The notes: generated by a model not told the origin, from the letters alone. Positions 1,901 through 12,831 are shown, counted from the first letter of the stretch. The stretch is DNA of 64,000 nucleotides from Patescibacteria group bacterium (GCA_035549555.1 DASZQR010000010.1:372001-436000), one strand, 5' to 3'. A program made the numbers and translations.

Positions 1901-2560
1901 ATGAAAAAGAAAATCCTAAAAATTACCGGTGTGACTTTCTTGATATTACTGTTAGCTACATTTATATATTCAAGAATTCTCCAGTCCCAAGCAGATGAAA
2001 ACGGAAAAATTTTCGACGATAGATGTAATAATGTAAATCCAGCCTTAATCGCTTATAAAAATTCTTATCTTCAGATGTGGCAAGTTATGAACAATAATGG
2101 CTCAAAAGATGAAGCAATGCAAGATTTCAATAACTATATTTCAGGTATTCAAAAATATATTCCCCTCGAAAATAACTGGTTAGACAAAGATTCAAAATAT
2201 ATAAATAACTGGGCATTCCAAATATTTCAGCCAAAATATATCAAAGATTTAGCAACTCTCCAATACAATATGTATAAAGCTCAAAGAGATGACGCAGAGT
2301 ACATTCAAAATCTCTTCGAAAACCCAAATAGTCAAAATAATACTGATCCAACAATTCCGGCAAAAAATCTTCAAGATGCAAGTAATAAATATTTTAGTGC
2401 GCAAGATGCTGCATCAAAAAAGAAAGACTGGAGAAAATTACTATGGACAGAGCCACCAGTCAATTGCGATCGCAAAAATCTAATTATTCCAAATACTTCA
2501 ATTGATAATATCTTTGCAACTCCAGTTCCAGAAGTTAAAAATCCAGAACAAACAGGTTAA
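1901..2560 (+). CDS. Hypothetical membrane-anchored protein
   Basis: 219 aa, no family recognised. Residues 1-3 are basic and about 6-24 form one hydrophobic helix (KITGVTFLILLLATFIYSR), so this is a signal anchor or uncleaved signal peptide. The remainder is hydrophilic, mostly helical and rich in N, Q and K, and should lie outside the membrane. It has two cysteines (CNNVNP near residue 42 and PPVNCDRK near 190) that could form a disulfide. It is a lone plus-strand gene between two minus-strand units and has its own -10 (TATACT, 1882-1887). Its TAA overlaps the TAA of the convergent nuclease gene in the palindrome TTAA. Confidence 0.7.
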   Translation: MKKKILKITGVTFLILLLATFIYSRILQSQADENGKIFDDRCNNVNPALIAYKNSYLQMWQVMNNNGSKDEAMQDFNNYISGIQKYIPLENNWLDKDSKYINNWAFQIFQPKYIKDLATLQYNMYKAQRDDAEYIQNLFENPNSQNNTDPTIPAKNLQDASNKYFSAQDAASKKKDWRKLLWTEPPVNCDRKNLIIPNTSIDNIFATPVPEVKNPEQTG

Positions 2561-3315
2561 GCTTTCTCATATTCTTTCACAGCTTTTCTATAAGCACAAT
2601 AATCACAAGCCTCTCCACACTCTGGAAGTTCATCAGACTTCAAACAATTGATTGCATTCATTATTGTTTCTGCAATCCATGAAGTATCCCCTTTATAGGC
2701 AATTAATTTGATATCAAATTCAAGCTTTGCATCAAATGCTTTTCTATCTGTGTTGCCGTTACAATAAACAAAATATCCAGTGTCAGAAACTTTAAATCCA
2801 TTTTTACGAAATAGCCACTGATAAACTTCCATTTGCCTTTTATAAGCTATCTGCCAATCAGCATCCAAATTAACTTCCGTCTCCTTTGAAGTAGATTTGT
2901 AGTCAACAATAATAAACTCGCCAGCTAGGTTTACCCACACATCATCAACTCCTCCAGTAATAATCACATTTGTCCCATCTATTGGCGCAGTTACTCCTCT
3001 TCTTAATGAATCTCTCCATTCATCAATTTTCTCGTGTGCTAGAGGAATTGCATCAATTCCATACGCTTTCATTAAAGGATGCTGCGTTTTTGCATTTCGG
3101 TGAATATCAAATTCTTTTTTAAGAAGCTTATCAACAGCACTATTTAAAGAAAACGGATAAGATGGAGGTTGAGAAACCCCAAGTCGCCGATCCAAATAAA
3201 AACACCTCGGGCAATTTATAAAAAGATCAATTTTAGAGCGGCTAAGCCGAAAAGGCTCGCGAGATTCCGGATCATAAATATTTCTTTTCCTGTTTGGTTT
3301 GTAATAATCAGACAT
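2557..3315 (-). CDS. Iron-sulfur PD-(D/E)XK nuclease (Cas4/RecB-like)
   Basis: 252 aa, a Cas4/AddB/Dna2-type nuclease. The core motifs are GGVDD (D124/D125), IIVDYKS (D138 and K140) and the QxxxY motif IV (Q161, Y165). Cysteines sit at both ends, C35/C38 in INCPRCFYL and C233, C237, C240 in CGEACDYC, the arrangement that holds a 4Fe-4S cluster in this family. Such enzymes are DNA exonucleases or endonucleases. There are no cas genes or CRISPR repeats here, so a CRISPR role is not supported. It is the last gene of the hsd operon; its ATG overlaps the stop of the HhH gene by 8 bp (ATGTCTGA). Its link to the type I system is inferred from this coupling. Confidence 0.88.
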   Translation of the reverse strand: MSDYYKPNRKRNIYDPESREPFRLSRSKIDLFINCPRCFYLDRRLGVSQPPSYPFSLNSAVDKLLKKEFDIHRNAKTQHPLMKAYGIDAIPLAHEKIDEWRDSLRRGVTAPIDGTNVIITGGVDDVWVNLAGEFIIVDYKSTSKETEVNLDADWQIAYKRQMEVYQWLFRKNGFKVSDTGYFVYCNGNTDRKAFDAKLEFDIKLIAYKGDTSWIAETIMNAINCLKSDELPECGEACDYCAYRKAVKEYEKA

Positions 3316-4009
3316 AATTTAAAAGAATATCGAATGAATGTTTACCTACATACCAAGCTCCAGCATTAAACAAAAGAGGAGATGTGTGTTCAATTAAACA
3401 TTTATTTATTATTTTGCTTTTAGTCACTTCTCTGTCATCTCTCGGTTCAGTAACTCCAAGTTTATCACTAACTTGCTTTACCCATGTATCAATTGGCTGA
3501 AAGTAAATAAAATCTTGCTTTTTTATTTCATTTTCTAATTCAAAAACCAAAGCCAAATCTCGAAGAAAAAATGTTGCAATCTTATCAGCAACCCCGTAAA
3601 TATTACATAATTCTTGATAAACACCAGAAATATTTCCATCATGAATTTGTTCAATAGAATATAAAACAATATTTCTTCCGTTGTTGTGTCTGATCATTTC
3701 TATTGTCTGACAAATCATTCTTCTATCAACCCTATTATTAACTTTATTTGCAACCAAAAGCTCCTCAAATTCACTCGATTTAAATCTTTTAATATTATTT
3801 TTTAAGTCAAAATTCTCTACAACTTCCATCGCACGTTTCTGAAAATTTTCAGAAATTTCATCCTTCCTTCCTCTATAAAACGACTTAGAAAAGAAAAACT
3901 TCAACCCCTCATACCAATCACTTTTTATTTCATCTCTCCTGCCAATATCAGCCACCAAAAATTCTCCCACATATTTCTCACCAAACTCTCCAATGGTTTT
4001 TATATTCAT
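3308..4009 (-). CDS. Divergent HhH-GPD DNA glycosylase-like protein
   Basis: 233 aa from the ATG at 4009, 2 bp after the hsdR stop; a GTG at 4018 would add three residues and overlap hsdR. The segment around residues 136-185 reads YGVADKIATFFLRD and then PIDTWVKQVSDKLG. This matches the helix-hairpin-helix and catalytic region of endonuclease III-like glycosylases (GVGxKTA ... PVDTHVxRVxxRLG) and keeps the lysine (K143) and aspartate (D174) used in catalysis. There is no C-terminal 4Fe-4S cysteine cluster. The N-terminal half is not recognisable. A base-excision activity is inferred from the motif only; the substrate is unknown. The gene lies between hsdR and an Fe-S nuclease in one coupled operon, suggesting a defence role. 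Confidence 0.6.
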   Translation of the reverse strand: MNIKTIGEFGEKYVGEFLVADIGRRDEIKSDWYEGLKFFFSKSFYRGRKDEISENFQKRAMEVVENFDLKNNIKRFKSSEFEELLVANKVNNRVDRRMICQTIEMIRHNNGRNIVLYSIEQIHDGNISGVYQELCNIYGVADKIATFFLRDLALVFELENEIKKQDFIYFQPIDTWVKQVSDKLGVTEPRDDREVTKSKIINKCLIEHTSPLLFNAGAWYVGKHSFDILLNYV

Positions 4010-4011
4010 TT

Positions 4012-6804
4012 TCACCACTCAAATATTTCTACAATTTTTTCTATTGCTGTTTTGATTCTGTCGATAATCCCTTGTCTTTCTAGAATATGCGGTGTTTGAG
4101 GCAATGAATCAACAATATCTTGGCCGCTTGGCAGTTTTTGAGTATATAAATATTCACTAATTAATTTTTCAAATTTTTCTTCTTGGATGTTTTCCTTTAT
4201 TGCAATTTCTTTAAGTTGTTTTGATCGCTCACTATTCCAAAAGTTTTCAAATGCGTCTTCTGCCTTGCCAGAATCAACAACCTTAGGTAAATTCTCCTCA
4301 ATAAACTTTCTTATTAGCTCCTTTTTGCTTCGAAGCTTTACGCTATGATCAAATAGTTTGAGTATCTCTTCGGTTTTCTTCTCACGAAGAGCTTTGGAAG
4401 TAATATCTTTAAGTCCCGCAATAAGTTTAATAATATAATCAAAATCAATAATATCACGCACTGTTAACTCAATTTCAAAATCAATTTGATCAAGAACCGA
4501 TTCTTCTTCAGTTTGGTTTTTCCTTTTTTCATAAATATCTAAATATTTACTTTGATAATCATAAAATTCCTGTTCTGTTATTCCAAGATTGTCAAAAGAA
4601 AATTCGGCAAAGGTTTCCAAGGACGATTTTATTCTAAGCAAATCACGAAATGTTTTAACAAAAGAAGCTTTTTCTTCATCTCCCTGCAAATTATCTACTG
4701 ATTCTACTGTTGGAGTCTTTTCTCTAAGTTCTTGTAGTTTGATTTCAAACTCTATCTTTTGTTCTTCATATGGTTTTTTGAATACAATTTCCCTTGCGTT
4801 CTCATCGCCAAACAAAGCAAGTGCTTGGTCAGTAGCTTCTTTTAAATTCCGAAATGTTACAATATTTCCATGAGGTTTATCAGCATTCAAAAGTCTATTT
4901 GTTCTTGAGTATGCTTGAATAAGTCCATGATAACGAAGGTTTTTATCAACATATAAAGTATTAAGCCTTGCACTATCAAATCCAGTTAAAAACATGTTTA
5001 CAACCAACACTAAATCTACCTCTTTATCTTTAATTCTTTTTTGTAAATCTTTGTAATAATTATAAAACTTATCAGTAGAAAAATTTGTTCCAAAAACTTC
5101 GTTATAGTCTTTAATACATTTTTCTAAAAATTCCCGGGACTGTTCATTTACAGCCCCTTCTGCAAAAACATCAACATCAAGCATATCTGTTGATTCTTCT
5201 TCATTTGCCTGATATGTAAAAATTGTTGCAAGCTTAAAATCTTCAGGTTTTCGGGTCTTTAGATGCTTATAATATTTTTTCAAAACTTCAATGTTAGAAA
5301 CCGCAAAAAAAGCATTAAATTTTCCATTCTTTGTTTTCTTTTTCCAATCACTCAAAATATAATCCGTAATTTTCGAAACCCTATCATCACTTTCTAAAAC
5401 CTCTTTAGTATCAATTCCTGAAACCGTAGGATCAACAAAATTATCCATATATACAGTATCTGGAAACTTTTGTTTATATTTACCAACATACTCAACAGCA
5501 AATCCTAAAACATTTTTATCTTCAATTGCATGAGTAATAACATATTTATGCAAGCATTCTCCAAACACATCTGCAGTGGTTACCCCACCAATGTTGTTTT
5601 CTGCAAAAATCGGAGTGCCTGTAAACCCAAACATCTGGGCGTTATGGAAAAAATTTCTAATTCGCGCATTTGTCAGACCAAACTGACTTCTGTGACATTC
5701 ATCAAAAATAATTATCACTTTTTCGTCTTGCAAATAAGCAAACTGGTCCAAATATTTTTCGCGCCTTATAGCAACATCCAGTTTTTGAATTGTTGTAACA
5801 ATTAATTTTCTATTTTTATCTTTCAGCTGCTTAACTAAATTTTTAGTATTTTCTGTCCCGTCCACAGAATCTTTGGAAAAAGAGTTAAATTCTTTAGTTG
5901 TCTGAATATCTAAATCTTTTCTATCAACTACAAAAAGTATTTTTTTAACTTCAGGAATTCTAGAAAGTATTTGGCTAGTTTTAAAAGAAGTTAAAGTCTT
6001 TCCTGATCCAGTTGTATGCCAGATATATCCATTTTTATTTCCTTCACGAACTCGTTTTTGGATAGCCTTCACTGCATAATACTGATAGGGCCGCAAAATC
6101 ATCATTGTCCTATCTTTGGCTTCGGCTAAAACAATATATTCAGCAATCATTTCTGAAAGGTTACATTTTTCTAAAAATACATCAGCAAATTCGTTTAACT
6201 TTGTAATTTTCCTGTTCTTCTCATCTGTCCAAAAGAAAGTTTGTTCAAAAAATTGCCTTGGATTATTAGCAAAATATTTCGTATTTACGCCATTACTAAT
6301 TACAAATATTTGAATATATTCAAACAAAGTTCCAGTAAAAGTATTTCTCTGATAGCGATTTATCTGATTAAAGGCTTCTTTCATTTCAACGCCTCGCCTC
6401 TTTAATTCTATTTGAACAAGTGGAAGTCCATTCACAAGAAGCGTTACATCATATCTATTTTTATAATTCCCCATTTGCGTTATCTGATGAGCAACTTGAT
6501 AAACATTACGGCACCACTGATCCATATTAAAAAAGCGAATATAAAAAGTTGTCTCATCATCTCGGTGCAATAAAAATCTATCACGCAAAGTTTTACCTTT
6601 ATCAAATCTATCACCATGCATAAGATGATTAAGAATTTTCTCAAATTCCCTGTCAGTAAGTTTAGTTTCATTAAACTTTTCAAGTTGAAGTTTAAGATTT
6701 GTTATTAAAGCGGTGGAGTCAGGAATTGTAACACTCTCAAACCCCAGCTTATTAAGCTGTTGTATAAGTTCCAGTTCTAGTTGTGCTTCAGATTGTGTGG
6801 TCAT
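4012..6804 (-). CDS. hsdR: Type I restriction endonuclease subunit R
   Basis: 930 aa, the translocase and nuclease subunit. The N-terminal PD-(D/E)XK nuclease is seen as D119 and E133-L-K135 (LVQIELKRRG). The SF2 helicase motifs are Walker A GSGKT (266-270), DECH (368-371), TGTP (395-398) and, further on, FLTGFDS and QAYSRTNRL. The C-terminal helical region, where HsdM would bind, is less conserved. The ATG at 6804 was chosen because it is 1 bp after the stop of the DUF4145 gene and gives the usual MTTQSEAQLE start. The longer ORF to 6927 would run through the DUF4145 coding region. Together with HsdM and HsdS it should form the ATP-driven restriction complex. Confidence 0.95.
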   Translation of the reverse strand: MTTQSEAQLELELIQQLNKLGFESVTIPDSTALITNLKLQLEKFNETKLTDREFEKILNHLMHGDRFDKGKTLRDRFLLHRDDETTFYIRFFNMDQWCRNVYQVAHQITQMGNYKNRYDVTLLVNGLPLVQIELKRRGVEMKEAFNQINRYQRNTFTGTLFEYIQIFVISNGVNTKYFANNPRQFFEQTFFWTDEKNRKITKLNEFADVFLEKCNLSEMIAEYIVLAEAKDRTMMILRPYQYYAVKAIQKRVREGNKNGYIWHTTGSGKTLTSFKTSQILSRIPEVKKILFVVDRKDLDIQTTKEFNSFSKDSVDGTENTKNLVKQLKDKNRKLIVTTIQKLDVAIRREKYLDQFAYLQDEKVIIIFDECHRSQFGLTNARIRNFFHNAQMFGFTGTPIFAENNIGGVTTADVFGECLHKYVITHAIEDKNVLGFAVEYVGKYKQKFPDTVYMDNFVDPTVSGIDTKEVLESDDRVSKITDYILSDWKKKTKNGKFNAFFAVSNIEVLKKYYKHLKTRKPEDFKLATIFTYQANEEESTDMLDVDVFAEGAVNEQSREFLEKCIKDYNEVFGTNFSTDKFYNYYKDLQKRIKDKEVDLVLVVNMFLTGFDSARLNTLYVDKNLRYHGLIQAYSRTNRLLNADKPHGNIVTFRNLKEATDQALALFGDENAREIVFKKPYEEQKIEFEIKLQELREKTPTVESVDNLQGDEEKASFVKTFRDLLRIKSSLETFAEFSFDNLGITEQEFYDYQSKYLDIYEKRKNQTEEESVLDQIDFEIELTVRDIIDFDYIIKLIAGLKDITSKALREKKTEEILKLFDHSVKLRSKKELIRKFIEENLPKVVDSGKAEDAFENFWNSERSKQLKEIAIKENIQEEKFEKLISEYLYTQKLPSGQDIVDSLPQTPHILERQGIIDRIKTAIEKIVEIFEW

Positions 6805-6805
6805 G

Positions 6806-7480
6806 TTAGTTTTGATTGTCTCTCTTTTTAATTTTTTCTTTTTCATCTTCAGGGAGACTGTCGAACAATCTGTTAACTTCTTTTGGTTCACTAATCGTCT
6901 TTTCAGCGATAAAGTTAATAACCTCAAAAAGTTTTAACGCTATATCTTTATTATCAGAAAGATCAATTTGTCCAGGGTGAACTGCGTTGTTTCCTGTTAT
7001 CCTTACATAATCAAGTGCTTTCTGAATCGTAGGATTAAGTCCGTTAGCGATTAATTTCTTTATATCTTCATTAATATTATTTCCTTCTTCACCAAGTTGT
7101 TTTAATAATTTTTGTAATGACAGTCGCAGAAGTGCAGCCGAGCCCCTAGGAGATTTATGAAGTATCTCCGCTGCTTCTTTATAGTCTCTTTTTATATCTG
7201 GATTTAAATCATCATTCGGATCGTCTACTGAAATTTTATCTGGATAAACGATGTCTTGATTCAACCAAAACATATAATTTCCGCAATGTTCACATCTAGA
7301 AATTCTCCACTCTACAGAAAGTGCTTCATCAAAAGGAGTATTGTTTCTGATAACAAAATCGGAAAAATGTAGATTCGTTGCCCTTATATGCGCCCAAAAT
7401 TGTTTTGCATAAACACCGCAGTGAGGACAATGAAATTGACCTTCGTTAAATTTTGGAGGATAAAATTTTGATTTAGCCAT
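6806..7480 (-). CDS. Zinc-binding DUF4145 protein in hsd operon
   Basis: 224 aa from the ATG at 7480, 2 bp after the hsdS stop; the upstream in-frame codons would overlap hsdS. The N-terminus has two CxxC knuckles, C18/C21 (HCPHCG) and C63/C66 (RCEHCG), likely one zinc site. Residues about 110-195 are a DUF4145 helical domain with the family signature R160...GNNAVHPG (H168). DUF4145 domains occur in HsdR proteins and as separate genes next to restriction-modification loci; their action is not established. Its place between hsdS and hsdR with 1-2 bp spacing implies it is made together with the complex and may modulate HsdR or bind nucleic acid. Confidence 0.85.
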   Translation of the reverse strand: MAKSKFYPPKFNEGQFHCPHCGVYAKQFWAHIRATNLHFSDFVIRNNTPFDEALSVEWRISRCEHCGNYMFWLNQDIVYPDKISVDDPNDDLNPDIKRDYKEAAEILHKSPRGSAALLRLSLQKLLKQLGEEGNNINEDIKKLIANGLNPTIQKALDYVRITGNNAVHPGQIDLSDNKDIALKLFEVINFIAEKTISEPKEVNRLFDSLPEDEKEKIKKRDNQN

Positions 7481-7482
7481 AT

Positions 7483-8706
7483 TTATACAAACATCCTTTG
7501 CATTAAGCCTTTTTTCCAATTTTCTGCCATAGAAATTTGCTGTTGCTTGGATTGTAGAAGATTATCAATTGAAGTCAAGAAATTGGCAATTTTTTCTTGC
7601 TCTTTAGTACTCGCAGGTATTGTCACAATTATTTCAGAAAAATGCTTAAATTTAAGGTTCCAAGTATCTGATGTAAGCCCTTGAGAATATCTATAAAAAT
7701 TAAACACTATTCGAGGATATTTAAAAAGATATCCAAAAAAAATAACATTGCCTTTTTTAGGTCTAACAACTGTATATGCAGGACTCACTATGCCATCAAA
7801 ACTAGAAACAGCAGACGCACCTTGCCACATACGCATGGTGTTATATGCTATGTCTCCAACTCGAACTATTTTATACTTGGATTTGTCTAAACTAGAACTA
7901 TCTTTCTTAATTGTTGTATCTTGCTTAACAATGCCCTTACTTTGCGAAATAGATAACATTTCAAAACTTTGATTTTCTTTTCTGTCGTTGCATTCGTCAA
8001 ACAAATCTCCTAATTTATTTTCTTCCCATTTAGGAAAATTTTTACCATTATCATCTTTATATCTTATTTTTTGACTAAAAATCTTTTGCATCATGCCTTT
8101 TTTGTATTTTTCTAATTCCTCCTGTTGTTTTTTAAGGCTTTCAATCCAAGAATCTACAGAAGTTAAAAATAAGGCAATTTTCTGTTGTTCATCTGAATTT
8201 GGTAAAGAAATACGAATTGCCAAAAACCCAGGTTGCGAAATATTTTTCATACTATTACTCGTGCCTGTAGCAATAGTCGATAACTTACTTCTAATTTTAC
8301 CTTCTGAAATCAGAAAGCTTATAAATTCACCATTGCTATATTTATTAAACTCAACTAGCCAAAGTCGATCAGGAAGATATAAATCGTCATGGTCTTCATA
8401 AACATAGGCACTTTCACCTACTAAACCGGGGGTGTTCATCCTACTAACAATTACAGTTCCCTTTTTAGGATTAATTTTTGCTCTCTTATTCTCACTCAAC
8501 AAAATAGTTTTATGCTCATAAGGCTTAAATTTTCTTTTAAAAACTGCACTTGTTTTTAAAATACCCAACTCGCTAGTTAACTTTAATCTTTCTTCAGAAT
8601 TGACACTTACTCCTGTCTTAATTCGCCACACTACATCCCCCATTTTTTTTTCTTCCCACTCCCCACTAAATTCAGGAAATCTGAGTTTGGGAATTTTAAT
8701 CATCAT
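7483..8706 (-). CDS. hsdS: Type I restriction specificity subunit S
   Basis: 407 aa with the two-half layout of HsdS. The first target recognition domain begins at KLRFPEFSGEWEEKKMGD (residues 7-24) and the second at PKWEENKLGDLF (225-236). Each is followed by a conserved helical spacer: residues 173-211 (EQQKIALFLTSVDSWIESLK and onward) and 367-407 (EQEKIANFLTSIDNLL and onward). The two spacers resemble each other, as expected for the coiled-coil arms that set the distance between the two half-sites. The recognition sequence cannot be read from the protein. ATG at 8706 follows the KilA-N stop by 2 bp; a second ATG is at 8703. Confidence 0.95.
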   Translation of the reverse strand: MMIKIPKLRFPEFSGEWEEKKMGDVVWRIKTGVSVNSEERLKLTSELGILKTSAVFKRKFKPYEHKTILLSENKRAKINPKKGTVIVSRMNTPGLVGESAYVYEDHDDLYLPDRLWLVEFNKYSNGEFISFLISEGKIRSKLSTIATGTSNSMKNISQPGFLAIRISLPNSDEQQKIALFLTSVDSWIESLKKQQEELEKYKKGMMQKIFSQKIRYKDDNGKNFPKWEENKLGDLFDECNDRKENQSFEMLSISQSKGIVKQDTTIKKDSSSLDKSKYKIVRVGDIAYNTMRMWQGASAVSSFDGIVSPAYTVVRPKKGNVIFFGYLFKYPRIVFNFYRYSQGLTSDTWNLKFKHFSEIIVTIPASTKEQEKIANFLTSIDNLLQSKQQQISMAENWKKGLMQRMFV

Positions 8707-8708
8707 GT

Positions 8709-9551
8709 TTATTTCTTTGCTTCTAAAAGTTTTTGCTCTTCTTCGTCTTCTTTAATAAAAGTTCGTAATTGCCTTTCTGCCGAGTCTATCAAAAGTGTCA
8801 CCCTCTCCTTTTGCGTTTTCTTTTCATTTATAAAATGTGCATTCAAATTTTCCAGGTTTGCAAGTATAACTAATTCCTGAGAGGATGCATAATCTCGTTG
8901 ATTTCGTCCTGATTTTGTCAATTTCTTATTTTTGGCTCTCCATTCTGAAGCAGTTTGACCAAATACAATTTTGTTCAAAAGATCTGCCTCATCTATATAT
9001 ACAAATGTTTCGTCTGATTTAGCTAATTGGAGAAATGGTAGCAGCACATTTTTAATAGAATCAGTGTGCAACTTGTAGTTGACTCTACTCAAATATCTAT
9101 GTGCATCCCATCGTGCAAATTTCTGCTCACGCTCCTTCAACCTTTGAAATTCTGTAATTATCAACAACTTAAACTCAGGACTCAGCCAACTTCCAAACTC
9201 AAAAGCGATATCTTTGTGTGCGTATGTTCCACCATACCGTCCTTTTTTAGAAAAAATACCTTTTGCACCTGTCTTCAATATCCAATCAGCAACTGATGGA
9301 TTAAAGCTATTCGAACCTGCATTATTTTTAAAATACACGAATTCGTGTATTTTAAAATCAGGGTTATTTATCTTCTCCCAAAACCCCAAGAAATCTATTG
9401 TGTTTTTTGATCTTAGCCAACTGTGAAGTGCTCTATCCGCACCAGCACTACGAGCCATATCTGTTAAACAGATATAATCTTCAGCTCCTACTTTAGCAAC
9501 ATTTATATTACTCTCATGGACTGACATCGCAAGTTTGGTGTTTCGCTTCAT
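8709..9551 (-). CDS. KilA-N domain protein between hsdM and hsdS
   Basis: 280 aa. Residues about 20-138 are a KilA-N DNA-binding domain with its usual landmarks: YICLTDMAR, SWLRSKNTIDFLGFWE and YAHKDIAFEFGSWLSPEFKL. The C-terminal part (about 160-280) is charged and helical, ending in a K/E-rich tail, and is probably a partner-binding region. KilA-N domains are common in phage and large DNA virus proteins and are also found as extra genes inside type I loci, often between hsdM and hsdS. A role in regulating the system or countering phage is possible but unproven. It lies 1 bp after hsdM and 2 bp before hsdS. Confidence 0.9.
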   Translation of the reverse strand: MKRNTKLAMSVHESNINVAKVGAEDYICLTDMARSAGADRALHSWLRSKNTIDFLGFWEKINNPDFKIHEFVYFKNNAGSNSFNPSVADWILKTGAKGIFSKKGRYGGTYAHKDIAFEFGSWLSPEFKLLIITEFQRLKEREQKFARWDAHRYLSRVNYKLHTDSIKNVLLPFLQLAKSDETFVYIDEADLLNKIVFGQTASEWRAKNKKLTKSGRNQRDYASSQELVILANLENLNAHFINEKKTQKERVTLLIDSAERQLRTFIKEDEEEQKLLEAKK

Positions 9552-9552
9552 A

Positions 9553-11130
9553 TCAAAAAGGGATTTCTATTTTTAATTCTTTGCAAAATTCTGCTATTTT
9601 TCCTTGAAGTTTCACTTCATCTATTTCCAAAGTCTTAATTTCTTTTGCAACTTTTTCTATATCAATTTCCGGTTCTGGCTCAAAGGTATCTACATATCTT
9701 GGAATATTTAGGTTATATTCATTTTCTTTTATTTCATTCAAACTTGCTCTGTGAGAATATCTTTTTAATTCTTTTCTATTTCTATAAGTCTCAAAAATCT
9801 TCTCGATATTTTCATCTGTTAATTTATTTTGATTTTTTCCTTTTTCAAACTCTTTCGAGGCGTCAATAAATAAAATATCTTGATCTTCTTTTCTGCATTT
9901 TTTGAAAATTAGGATACAAGCTGGAATTGAAGTGCCATAAAAAAGATTTGCCGGAAGCCCTATCACTGCATCCAGATAATTTTGTCTTTCAATTATGTGC
10001 TTTCGTATTTGGCCTTCTGCTCCTCCCCTAAAGAGTGCTCCATGGGGAAGAACTACTGCCATTACGCCGTTATCTGCCAAATGATAAATCATATGGGTCA
10101 CAAACGCATAATCCGCATATCCCTTTGGAGCTAATCTTCCGTACTGAGAAAACCGCTCATCCTGTTCAAGCAAAGGATTTTTATTACTCTCCCAATCTGC
10201 TGAAAATGGAGGATTAGCAACAACTGCTTCAGCTTGTAAATCTTGATGCATGTCATCAGTTAGCGTATCGCCATGCCTAATACTAAAATGGTCAAAACGA
10301 ACTCCATGAAGGATCATATTCATACGTGCCAAATTGTAAGTTGTAGGGTTTAATTCCTGTCCGTAATAATCAACAATTTGTGCAAAATCCCCAACGCGAA
10401 GAAGAAGCGACCCTGAACCACATGTCGGATCATAAACCGATTTAATTCTTTGTTTTCCTTCAGTAACAATTTTCGACAATAATCTTGAAACTTGAGCAGG
10501 TGTATAAAATTCCCCTCCCTTTTTACCAGCACCTGCCGCAAACTCTCCAATCAAATATTCATAAGCATCTCCCAAAAGATCGCTTTTGGTATCTTCCAAT
10601 TTAAAATCAATTCCAGAAAGCAATGTTAAGACTTCAACAATTACCTCATTTTTCTTAGTCTCAGTTTTCCCAAGTTTTGAAGAAGTTAAATCTACATCAT
10701 CAAACAAACCTTTAAAATCATCTTCACTCGCTGTTCCCATTGATGTTTGTTCAATTGTGTTTAAAACACTTTTAAGATCTTCAAGTATGAAGTTTTCCTG
10801 TCCTTTAATTTCCCGGTTGCCTTTTTTGACTAAATACAAAAACAGTTCTCTGGGTCTCAAAAAGTATCCTAGCTGCTCTACACAGGCATGTTCTACTGCT
10901 TTTAAAACATCCCTATCTTTTTGGGTGTTTCCCCCAATTCCAGAAAATTTATAGTTCTCTCTAGAAAGAAGTTTATCGTTTATAAAGCGTTCAAGTTTTT
11001 CAGAAAGGTATTTGTAAAAAATAAAGCCTAGAATATAATTTTTATATTCATCCGCATTCATTTTTCCTCGAAGAACATTGGCAACTGCCCAAAGTTGTTT
11101 CTCTAAATTTCTTTTATCCTCAACAAGCAT
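9553..11130 (-). CDS. hsdM: Type I DNA methyltransferase subunit M
   Basis: 525 aa, first gene of the operon. The N-terminal HsdM helical domain (about 5-150) starts LEKQLWAVANVLRGKMNADE. The N6-adenine methyltransferase domain follows, with the AdoMet-binding motif D234-P-T-C-G-S-G and the catalytic NPPF at 306-309. The C-terminal tail (about 430-525) would contact HsdS. With HsdS it methylates adenine in the target site and protects host DNA. A TAAAAT hexamer lies 6 nt before the ATG with no Shine-Dalgarno sequence, so the operon message may start at the start codon. Confidence 0.96.
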   Translation of the reverse strand: MLVEDKRNLEKQLWAVANVLRGKMNADEYKNYILGFIFYKYLSEKLERFINDKLLSRENYKFSGIGGNTQKDRDVLKAVEHACVEQLGYFLRPRELFLYLVKKGNREIKGQENFILEDLKSVLNTIEQTSMGTASEDDFKGLFDDVDLTSSKLGKTETKKNEVIVEVLTLLSGIDFKLEDTKSDLLGDAYEYLIGEFAAGAGKKGGEFYTPAQVSRLLSKIVTEGKQRIKSVYDPTCGSGSLLLRVGDFAQIVDYYGQELNPTTYNLARMNMILHGVRFDHFSIRHGDTLTDDMHQDLQAEAVVANPPFSADWESNKNPLLEQDERFSQYGRLAPKGYADYAFVTHMIYHLADNGVMAVVLPHGALFRGGAEGQIRKHIIERQNYLDAVIGLPANLFYGTSIPACILIFKKCRKEDQDILFIDASKEFEKGKNQNKLTDENIEKIFETYRNRKELKRYSHRASLNEIKENEYNLNIPRYVDTFEPEPEIDIEKVAKEIKTLEIDEVKLQGKIAEFCKELKIEIPF

Positions 11131-11136
11131 GAGCTT

Positions 11137-11142
11137 ATTTTA
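11137..11142 (-). promoter_or_regulatory. -10 element of the hsd operon
   Basis: TAAAAT on the minus strand, ending 6 nt before the hsdM ATG at 11130. It is the only good -10 match in the 46-bp gap to the divergent gene at 11177. No convincing -35 is seen. The spacing predicts a leaderless transcript for the seven-gene operon. Confidence 0.45.
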
Positions 11143-11165
11143 TCACTTCTCCAACTTCACAGTGT

Positions 11166-11171
11166 TACAAT
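11166..11171 (+). promoter_or_regulatory. -10 element for the 68-aa membrane protein
   Basis: TACAAT on the plus strand, ending 5 nt before the ATG at 11177. No ribosome-binding site fits between them. It shares the short divergent gap with the hsdM promoter. Confidence 0.4.
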
Positions 11172-11176
11172 GATTT

Positions 11177-11383
11177 ATGAACCTTTCAGCTCTTGTTATC
11201 GCAATCACAATAACTTTTAGCCCGTTTGCTGGGTTTATCGCTTATGTAGTTTCTCTTGATGAATATCAGCATCATTTTGCAAGTAAAAGCGCAGCAAGAA
11301 AGCAAGCTTTGCAAACAGCAATTTTCACTTCTGCAGTCTTTTTAATTCTTGGAGTTATTCTTAGTGTTTATTTTGGTCACTAA
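11177..11383 (+). CDS. Small two-helix membrane protein
   Basis: 68 aa with two hydrophobic segments: residues about 4-25 (ALVIAITITFSPFAGFIAYV) and about 46-66 (AIFTSAVFLILGVILSVYFG). A basic/acidic loop, LDEYQHHFASKSAARKQA, joins them. No family that I can name. The short length, good hydrophobic pattern and a TACAAT 5 nt upstream support a real gene. It is divergent from hsdM and overlaps the 3' end of the convergent methyltransferase gene by 23 bp. Function unknown. Confidence 0.7.
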   Translation: MNLSALVIAITITFSPFAGFIAYVVSLDEYQHHFASKSAARKQALQTAIFTSAVFLILGVILSVYFGH

Positions 11384-12089
11384 TTCTTGTTTTTGAACCT
11401 TCAAAATATTTCTCGTCAATTTCTATTCCAATTCCTTTTCTTAATAATTGTTTACACGCCATAAGCGTCGTCCCGCTTCCCAAAAACGGATCTAAAACAA
11501 TATCATTTGTTTCGCTAAACATTTTTATTAGTCTTCTTGGAATCTCAACTGGAAAAGCTGCAGGGTGGTTTACTCTTTTTGGATTTTCGCCGCTAAATTT
11601 CCAAATTTCATTTACATAATCTCTAAATTCTTTTTTTACAGAAATCCATTCATCTTTGTAAAAAATCAAAATTAACTCTATATTTTTAGAAAACGCCATT
11701 GCATAAAACTTTTTTTGTTTGCTACTAGTCATGAGCGAAGTCGAATGATCCCAAACAATTGTTCCTTTATATTTAAAACCAGTTCTTTTTGCAAGAATTG
11801 TTAAGTCAGCGGCCAAACTTCTTTTTCCGTTCTTTCCTGTGTCAATTGGCACATTAATGCAAATTCGTCCGTTACTTTTTAAAATGTCAAAACTTTTTCC
11901 TAACCACTTTTTTGTAAATTCAAGATATTCTTTATAAGTTTTGTTATCGTTATAAATTCCATAATCTATTCCAATATTGTAAGGAGGGGAAGTGATTATT
12001 AAATCAACCGAACTTTCGGATAGATTAAAGTTTAAAAAATTGCAATTGTGAACTATAATATCTTGTATGCGAAAACTTTTAATTGCCAT
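11361..12089 (-). CDS. Solitary beta-type DNA methyltransferase
   Basis: 242 aa from the ATG at 12089. The catalytic SPPY motif is N-terminal (residues 34-37, DLIITSPPYNIG) and the AdoMet-binding motif is C-terminal (D200-PFLGSGTT, then GIGIEID), the order of beta-class N4-cytosine or N6-adenine enzymes (PF01555). SPPY is commonest in N4-cytosine enzymes, so that is the better guess. No cognate endonuclease gene is next to it. The start overlaps the start of the divergent 12067 gene by 23 bp; a longer ORF exists to 12140, but the ATG at 12089 already leaves a normal 13-residue lead to the first motif. Its 3' end overlaps the small membrane-protein gene. Confidence 0.88.
   Translation of the reverse strand: MAIKSFRIQDIIVHNCNFLNFNLSESSVDLIITSPPYNIGIDYGIYNDNKTYKEYLEFTKKWLGKSFDILKSNGRICINVPIDTGKNGKRSLAADLTILAKRTGFKYKGTIVWDHSTSLMTSSKQKKFYAMAFSKNIELILIFYKDEWISVKKEFRDYVNEIWKFSGENPKRVNHPAAFPVEIPRRLIKMFSETNDIVLDPFLGSGTTLMACKQLLRKGIGIEIDEKYFEGSKTRISDQNKH
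12054..12059 (+). promoter_or_regulatory. -10 element for the 12067 gene
   Basis: Perfect TATAAT ending 7 nt before the ATG at 12067. It lies inside the coding sequence of the divergent methyltransferase gene. No ribosome-binding site lies between hexamer and ATG. Confidence 0.5.
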
Positions 12090-12831
12090 TTTAATTTTTA
12101 TCCCTTTAGTTATCTTTGGTATTTTAATACTTAAAAACAAAAATACTAATCCGCAAAAATCAAATGCTCAAATTCCATCCCCTACTCCAGTTGCTCAAAA
12201 TAATTCTGCAGAAATAAATAATTACACTTTTTCCTGGTACCAAATAATAAACATAAATAATTTAAAATTAATTCCCAATTTTTCTCAAAAGCTTTCTTCC
12301 AAAGATGTAATAGATCAAAATAGTTGTATGTTTTTAGCAAACGGTCCGTTTTATGGTACAAACAATCAACCTCTTGGATTAATTATTACAAATGGAAATA
12401 CAATTTCAGATTATGAAAATAACAATTTATTAAATGGTGTTTTGTCAGTTAATGATTTCGCAACTCCAAGAATTACCCAAAATTTACCACAAGACCATTT
12501 ACAAATTGCAGTCCAAACAGGTCCAATAATTAAAGAAAATAATTCTTACGACAGCTTACAAATTACAAATGATAAAAATTCTCGAAGAGTTTTGGCAGCT
12601 GTTGACGGCAACAATAATTTATATTTTTTAGTTATTTATGACAAGGATTCAGAATTTTCAGGTCCGTTTTTAAACGATGTTCCAAGTTTATTAAATCAAT
12701 TTGAACAAAAAGAAAATATTAATTTTGCAGATATTATCAATTTAGATGGAGGTTCTGCGTCTGTCTTTATCACAAGAAATTTTGATTTAACAGAGTTTAA
12801 TCCGGTCGGAGCATTCTTTTGCCAATCTTAG
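12067..12831 (+). CDS. Phosphodiester glycosidase (NAGPA) family protein
   Basis: 254 aa. Residues 5-23 are one hydrophobic helix, so the protein is exported or membrane-anchored, followed by a P/N-rich linker to about 50. The rest has the landmarks of the NAGPA-like family (PF09992): NGPFYG (92-97), QTGP (150-153), RRVLAAVDG (173-181) and NLDGGSAS (225-232). Members cleave GlcNAc or related sugars from phosphodiesters or act on cell-wall polymers; the exact substrate here is unknown. Being extracytoplasmic, it may trim surface glycans made by the downstream locus. TATAAT lies 7 nt upstream of the ATG. The end overlaps recO by 35 bp. Confidence 0.85.
   Translation: MRKLLIAILIFIPLVIFGILILKNKNTNPQKSNAQIPSPTPVAQNNSAEINNYTFSWYQIININNLKLIPNFSQKLSSKDVIDQNSCMFLANGPFYGTNNQPLGLIITNGNTISDYENNNLLNGVLSVNDFATPRITQNLPQDHLQIAVQTGPIIKENNSYDSLQITNDKNSRRVLAAVDGNNNLYFLVIYDKDSEFSGPFLNDVPSLLNQFEQKENINFADIINLDGGSASVFITRNFDLTEFNPVGAFFCQS

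Follow-up and report, generated by a model that had tools for sequence, protein, structure and literature searches.

Do the two genes that follow hsdR in a type I restriction operon of a Patescibacteria group bacterium belong to the restriction system, or are they mobile additions to it? The operon lies at 2557-11130 of the window, by which we mean the whole 64,000-nucleotide stretch that was analysed (GCA_035549555.1, DASZQR010000010.1:372001-436000). It consists of hsdM, a KilA-N gene, hsdS, a DUF4145 gene and hsdR, followed by a gene for a protein of the helix-hairpin-helix HhH-GPD fold (the HhH gene) and a gene for a Cas4-like PD-(D/E)XK nuclease. A reading made from the sequence alone (the sequence-only reading) had taken all seven genes for one extended type I system. 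We suggest instead, with a probability of about 0.5, that this is a modular defence operon, composed of a type I restriction-modification (R-M) system, two internal defence-associated genes and two modular accessory genes at the 3' end. The source genome (1.01 Mb over 16 contigs, completeness 96%) belongs to the Patescibacteria, and its relatives include Beckwithbacteria and other Patescibacteria. To our knowledge, Patescibacteria rarely carry CRISPR and their phage resistance is largely an open question. The features of the operon are as follows.

9553-11130, minus strand: hsdM, type I DNA methyltransferase subunit (PF02384, N6_Mtase, 1.6e-112; PF12161, HsdM_N, 9.8e-20; PADLOC MTase_I, 1.8e-168)
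8709-9551, minus strand: KilA-N domain gene (PF04383, 9.5e-22; PADLOC candidate PDC-S22, 1e-103)
7483-8706, minus strand: hsdS, specificity subunit with two target-recognition stretches (PF01420, Methylase_S, two stretches, 1.4e-20; PADLOC Specificity_I, 4.2e-85)
6806-7480, minus strand: DUF4145 gene, PD-T7-4-like (PF13643, 4.5e-13; PADLOC PD-T7-4, 3.9e-86)
4012-6804, minus strand: hsdR, type I restriction translocase/nuclease (HSDR_N, 4.5e-36; SWI2_SNF2, 7.6e-64; T1R_D3-like; EcoR124_C)
3308-4009, minus strand: HhH-GPD-fold protein, 233 aa (AlphaFold2 model, fold comparison and hhalign; GTG alternative start at 4018)
3570-3605, minus strand: HhH hairpin and catalytic-Lys region (YGVADKIAT, K143), approximate codons, from the alignment
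3479-3502, minus strand: GPD-loop catalytic-Asp region (QPIDTWV, D174), approximate codons, from the alignment
2557-3315, minus strand: Cas4/AddB/RecB-type PD-(D/E)XK nuclease, 252 aa, predicted Fe-S (C35, C38, C237, C240; PF12705, PDDEXK_1, 7.6e-14)

Association of the terminal genes with type I restriction

The comparison with other genomes does not support the idea of a fixed type I extension, since both terminal genes occur mainly away from hsd loci, an outcome that the sequence-only reading had itself named as refuting. None of the other HhH loci has hsdR adjoining the HhH gene. Among the 40 nuclease loci examined first, hsd genes were detected within about 8 kb in 3 and BLAST revealed no recurring neighbour family, and the nuclease is therefore not a type I component. 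No locus besides this one, among those examined, carries the HhH and nuclease genes together. A dedicated seven-gene system of fixed composition was thus rejected, neither gene following hsdR consistently and the two not co-occurring elsewhere in the search. What stood of the sequence-only reading is the wider defence link, in that genes of other restriction or defence systems are present at most HhH loci and other defence operons often end with the nuclease.

The closest HsdR relative (L176, 75% identity) has the layout hsdM-hsdS-187 aa-hsdR without KilA-N, DUF4145, HhH or nuclease genes nearby, and the same four genes are missing at a 44% HsdR relative (L177). Because neither locus has them, the HhH and nuclease genes were probably added locally to the hsd operon.

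Recurrence of the nuclease at the end of unrelated defence operons

The nuclease is repeatedly the last gene of defence operons that are unrelated to each other, namely R-M of types I, II, III and IIG, CBASS (cyclic oligonucleotide-based anti-phage signalling), Gabija, Ppl, HerA and reverse transcriptase. It is a common gene, present in 133 of 380 Patescibacteria genomes and in 21 of the 57 in the order. Among the co-directional genes that immediately precede it are a reverse transcriptase (gap 0), a PemK toxin, a type III Res, an NgoFVII restriction enzyme (overlapping), KilA-N (gap 1), an Eco57I/AAA/DUF2130 operon and a four-gene Eco57I-type operon (gap 3), while DpnI lies slightly further upstream in another locus. 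At L111 (9850-11434) a KilA-N gene 50% identical to that of the window is located 1 nt before the nuclease, with no hsd genes.

A relative of the nuclease was also found on six IMG/VR contigs, which are called viral and may be host fragments, and all six have a defence operon directly before it (0-14 nt or a short overlap). In L182 (1051-6747) type I hsdR, a CBASS-like cyclase and a two-transmembrane effector form one run that ends with the nuclease, and in L185 (1803-5986) a Gabija-like gajA-gajB pair is inserted between type I hsdR and the nuclease. The nuclease directly follows type III Res in L183, IIG and Ppl genes in L184, HerA in L186 and a Ppl gene in L187; the PHP/AAA genes immediately before it in L184 (3152-5998) and L187 (3207-5996) match PADLOC Ppl.

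For a statistical comparison, a defence panel was built solely with genes of the window, of the HhH loci and of L182-L187, avoiding circularity, and was applied to 84 genome loci. Panel matches were found for 5 of the 66 genes in the upstream operons, compared with 0 of 243 genes downstream at positions +1 to +3 (Fisher p 0.0004) and 9 of 758 further away (Fisher p 0.003); the panel is insensitive, so the absolute rates are low. A Pfam comparison of the genes immediately upstream of the nuclease, in which 2 of 10 control genes lay in islands, comprised too few genes for a test. The candidate role of a pure housekeeping gene was dropped given the repeated terminal position in defence operons. 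In several loci the nuclease has a DUF2130 gene in its vicinity or as its immediate predecessor (L078; L178, 2016-3116, in a restriction/AAA operon), and one is located near the nuclease gene of the window, at 619-1872.

The protein itself agrees with the iron-sulfur PD-(D/E)XK nuclease proposed from the sequence alone. It is of the RecB/Cas4/AddB type and matches PDDEXK_1 with 52.7 bits (Pfam cut-off 22). The active site (H79, D124/D125, D138-x-K140, Q161-x3-Y165) is shared by 95% or more of 43 relatives. Four cysteines are near-invariant (C35, C237 and C240 in 43/43, C38 in 42/43), from which the cluster is predicted. The nearest folds to its model (pLDDT, predicted local distance difference test, 76) are the Cas4 protein SSO0001 (Z 11.7), AdnA (Z 10.9) and exonucleases, with a Foldseek E-value of 9.2e-07. 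Against the NCBIfam equivalog of CRISPR Cas4 it scores 37 bits, below the cut-off of 65.

Such a protein could also be a solo-Cas4 that serves recombination or DNA uptake as a RecB substitute unrelated to immunity. Its frequency in Patescibacteria and its often stand-alone position are what this explanation would predict, and solo-Cas4 is known to be over-represented in the Candidate Phyla Radiation (CPR; PMC5704561). The recurrent terminal position in defence operons speaks against it, and we regard a role restricted to recombination or uptake as somewhat unlikely.

The HhH protein as a putative glycosylase/AP lyase

The HhH protein has no match to a Pfam, NCBIfam or PADLOC family and does not reach the cut-off of Pfam HhH-GPD (PF00730); its single library match, to a PHROG, is at chance level (E 0.028). 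Its HhH nature was therefore established through structure. The AlphaFold2 model, built with the seven closest sequences, consists of helices only (pLDDT 91.6; predicted template modelling score 0.90). The top 13 Foldseek matches are all HhH-GPD enzymes, with weak E-values (0.03-0.9). VIA-align gave Z scores of 12.6 for MjOgg, 12.3 for SsOgg, 12.2 for EndoIII and 11.3 for bacterial OGG1, and the Ogg2 and EndoIII superpositions extend over 179-193 residues (Z 12-12.6), which places the model in the HhH-GPD fold. AGOG structures are not among the best 50 matches listed in this comparison. The structure comparison with the EndoIII and Ogg families that had been proposed as a check thus named Ogg2, EndoIII and OGG1 as the nearest folds.

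The catalytic residues point in the same direction. In pairwise hhalign comparisons with EndoIII sets (EndoIII/AlkA-type proteins from related genomes; pairwise E-values, probability 82-95), K143 pairs with the lysine of GVGxK and D174 with the aspartate of VDTH, so that both the hairpin Lys and the catalytic Asp of bifunctional HhH-GPD enzymes are present. We aligned 12 members, comprising the window protein, L011-L016, the phage contig L087, the Patescibacteria genome locus L093 and three archaeal plasmid proteins. K143, R150, P172, D174, G217 and W219 are invariant in all 12; the spacing from Lys to Arg is 7 in every member and that from Lys to Asp is 29-37, while the residue four before W219 is Asn in 11 members and Glu in one. 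The family also has conserved motifs of its own, FYRGRxDExS and VNNxxDRxM. The fold and the catalytic Lys/Asp pair bear out the HhH-GPD-like assignment made earlier for the sixth gene, and we suggest that it encodes a putative bifunctional DNA glycosylase/AP (apurinic/apyrimidinic) lyase of an unnamed HhH-GPD family.

The four C-terminal Cys that bind the 4Fe-4S cluster in EndoIII and MutY are absent, most members having 1-4 scattered Cys. The M. jannaschii plasmid gene (L008, 9401-10681) encodes a 426-aa protein with 18 cysteines and the same K/R/D/W signature. Weak sequence matches to RMD5 in the PDB (E 0.0065 and 0.0039) were taken as chance; the fold search did not show this relationship.

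Structures of DUF2419, the queuosine-nucleotide glycosylase, align with the HhH model over 198-206 residues at Z 9.5-10. Both are mainly helical, and the HhH family might accordingly act on free or RNA-derived modified nucleotides, like DUF2419/Qng1, rather than on DNA. Ogg2 and EndoIII score higher, a DNA-binding HhH hairpin (GVG(D/P)KIA-like) emerges from the profile alignment, and the HhH genes stand in the context of DNA-targeting systems. The HhH protein has no Pfam match to DUF2419/Qng1 at E up to 1. We consider a nucleotide substrate very improbable.

Distribution and neighbours of the HhH gene

Few genomes carry the HhH gene: 3 of the 380 from Patescibacteria, 4 of 374 when the class is searched and 2 of 57 for the order. 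Its distribution is patchy, the gene being found in Patescibacteria, Omnitrophota, Aminicenantes, a phage, and haloarchaeal and methanogen plasmids; the three archaeal plasmid relatives are from Haloquadratum and Methanocaldococcus. This patchy occurrence suggests horizontal spread. A scan of viral contigs with the HhH GPD motif pattern, and a tblastn search for the gene in phages and further plasmids, found nothing.

At most HhH loci, genes for other restriction or defence functions are present as well. The HhH gene neighbours a type ISP/IIG enzyme in L012, a serine recombinase together with a DNA methylase and a PD-(D/E)XK protein in L013, a PDC-S11-like nuclease (4-nt overlap), a type III R-M system and a recombinase in L014, AbiEii and a TOTE primase-helicase in L015, and an MjaI-type restriction system in L016.

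These neighbourhoods are relevant to a further explanation, in which the HhH protein serves to repair restriction-associated damage of the host (deaminated or oxidised bases, AP sites near modified sites) and does not attack invaders. In type I systems adenine methylation is expected, not cytosine methylation, which speaks against such a role, as does the company of differing systems (types I, II, III, IIG/ISP, AbiE/TOTE). The gene is moreover rare and located on a phage contig and archaeal plasmids, and the genome already has EndoIII and AlkA-like enzymes (L001, L002), the only genes found in it by a Pfam HhH-GPD search. The explanation has in its favour that repair glycosylases have this fold and these catalytic residues, and that a precedent exists in Mig.MthI, an HhH glycosylase that removes the T produced by 5-methylcytosine deamination (PMC2714593). 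On balance, host repair appears unlikely.

Operon layout and the type I core

Recomputation returned the gene order and strand claimed from the sequence alone, seven minus-strand open reading frames (ORFs) from hsdM to the nuclease. The spacings, computed from ATG starts (hsdR at 6804, HhH at 4009), also agree: 1 nt between hsdM and KilA-N, 2 between KilA-N and hsdS, 2 between hsdS and DUF4145, 1 between DUF4145 and hsdR, 2 between hsdR and HhH, and an 8-nt overlap of the HhH and nuclease genes. The mechanical ORF of hsdR extends to 6927. From this spacing we infer that the genes are likely co-transcribed. Tight spacing is frequent in the window (17 of 41 co-directional gene pairs between -12 and +4) and so does not by itself prove one functional system. 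The promoter-like element described before hsdM was not reproduced, there being no sigma-70-like site of at least 9/12 on the minus strand in 11131-11360; the sigma-70-like scan overall was at shuffle level.

HsdM, HsdS and HsdR are encoded together with intact family matches, as in a type I R-M system. The DUF4145 gene within the hsd operon is a strong PD-T7-4 homologue (PADLOC 3.9e-86), that is, an embedded member of a known defence family. A separate N6/N4 DNA methylase gene, which the sequence-only reading did not mention, precedes hsdM on this strand at a distance of 230 bp and is counted apart from the operon.

11361-12140, minus strand: separate DNA methylase (PF01555, 7.6e-48; PADLOC MTase_II, 1.1e-69)

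Weighing of the modular operon

Nomadic repair or housekeeping genes may have landed by chance behind hsdR, where they would be co-transcribed and functionally unconnected to restriction. This would account for the occurrence of each gene without hsd in nearly all other loci, for the lack of both genes at L176, and for the many nuclease copies that are free-standing or have genes such as TruB or lactate permease before them; tight spacing, as noted, is common. It does not predict the enrichment of defence genes upstream of the nuclease, the six of six IMG/VR contexts, or the richness of the HhH loci in R-M, Abi, TOTE and recombinase genes, and we find chance juxtaposition somewhat unlikely.

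Several observations do weigh against the modular defence operon. The HhH loci are few, and two of them are without a restriction gene, L011 having recombinases only and L093 lying near a contig end. The excess of restriction genes near HhH loci has the expected direction and is not significant (3 of 6 loci versus 8 of 40 controls, p = 0.14, leave-one-out BLAST). Most nuclease loci are outside defence operons and many stand alone, especially copies at 50-60% identity, and the nuclease may hence be a hitchhiking repair or recombination gene. Cooperation of the two enzymes rests on one locus, and the resemblance of the HhH protein to DUF2419 (Z about 10, 205 residues) makes a non-DNA substrate possible.

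Proposed functions

According to the modular reading, the HhH and nuclease genes would not have evolved within type I systems. The nuclease would repeatedly have been captured, with tight spacing and in terminal position, by defence operons unrelated to each other, and it would most likely degrade the DNA ends produced by the upstream system, in a RecBCD/AddAB-like clean-up. In the predicted HhH enzyme, K143 would attack C1' of the target nucleotide with the assistance of D174, and the glycosylase/AP lyase would remove a modified, probably purine, base and nick the strand. Its likely target would be invading DNA that a base modification protects from restriction, and the abasic sites or nicks left behind could then go to the nuclease; this cooperation we infer from the present locus alone. 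A more specific version, which we put forward tentatively and hold to be fairly improbable, is that the HhH family represents a new class of anti-phage glycosylases on the HhH-GPD repair fold, excising a modified purine (perhaps guanine) by which phages evade restriction, that the nuclease is a general plug-in end-degrader added by Patescibacteria to many DNA-targeting defence operons at their end, and that in the present operon the two enzymes follow type I restriction as successive steps.

A shared modular nuclease would suggest one degradation step common to many systems, possibly replacing RecBCD/AddAB. The known immune base-excision enzymes would gain a further fold from a defence-associated HhH-GPD clade whose lyase active site is intact, and such a clade points to a class of substrates that can be tested.

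Comparison with known systems

No account of HhH-GPD enzymes forming a defence-island clade, of one nuclease recurring last in diverse CPR defence operons, or of KilA-N with DUF4145 in type I loci turned up in the open-access literature. Among the characterized glycosylases, the HhH protein shares with OGG2, AGOG and EndoIII the HhH fold, the hairpin and the catalytic Lys and Asp, and with a basic residue at Lys+7 its layout resembles that of AGOG and OGG2. In Pab-AGOG the corresponding residues are K142, K149, D174 and D208/W212, the Trp stacking on the base (PMC9638937, PMC3397491). The Lys-to-Asp spacing is 31 here and 32 in AGOG, and both proteins have a Trp with a polar residue four positions before it; judging by spacing rather than by superposition, R150 and W219 may be the equivalents of the AGOG residues. 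The differences are Asn (or Glu) here instead of Asp four before the Trp, and R150 instead of Lys at +7, and AGOG has been described as exclusively archaeal (PMC3397491). In OGG2 a C-terminal Lys is strictly conserved for 8-oxoguanine recognition (PMC3397491), whereas it is absent here, the HhH members ending in NYV, NNE, PFR, EKL, STQ, EQL, GKL, LAN, ILT and others. Unlike OGG2, AGOG and EndoIII, the HhH family has no Pfam or NCBIfam match and adjoins defence and mobile genes.

Brig1, an anti-phage glycosylase with a fold like that of uracil-DNA glycosylase, and Brig3, with a mixed alpha/beta fold (PMC11078745, PMC13160076), are DNA glycosylases in defence islands, as the HhH family would be, but the HhH model is all-helical and a Lys-dependent lyase is predicted. 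R.PabI uses base excision and AP lyase activity for restriction (PMC10273834), the same pair of activities that is predicted for the HhH protein. It has the HALFPIPE fold and a fixed recognition sequence, in contrast to the HhH fold found here, with no evident partner methylase of the HhH protein's own.

The nuclease shares with solo-Cas4 and Cas4-like pfam12705 nucleases, as described in PMC5704561, the PD-(D/E)XK core, four Cys, the PDDEXK_1 model, the CPR distribution and R-M neighbourhoods, and UvrD-Cas4 with type III R-M is known from the same paper. By comparison, the nuclease here is a separate gene, has its Cys in a 2+2 arrangement and is last in many defence operons, a recurrence that the consulted part of the paper does not mention. 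The DUF4145 gene matches the PADLOC model of PD-T7-4 and differs in being embedded in a type I operon. With type I R-M systems (EcoR124-like; PADLOC REase_I PDLC03048) the operon has HsdM, HsdS and HsdR in common, and to the ordinary form it adds KilA-N and the PD-T7-4-like DUF4145 gene internally and the HhH and nuclease genes at its end.

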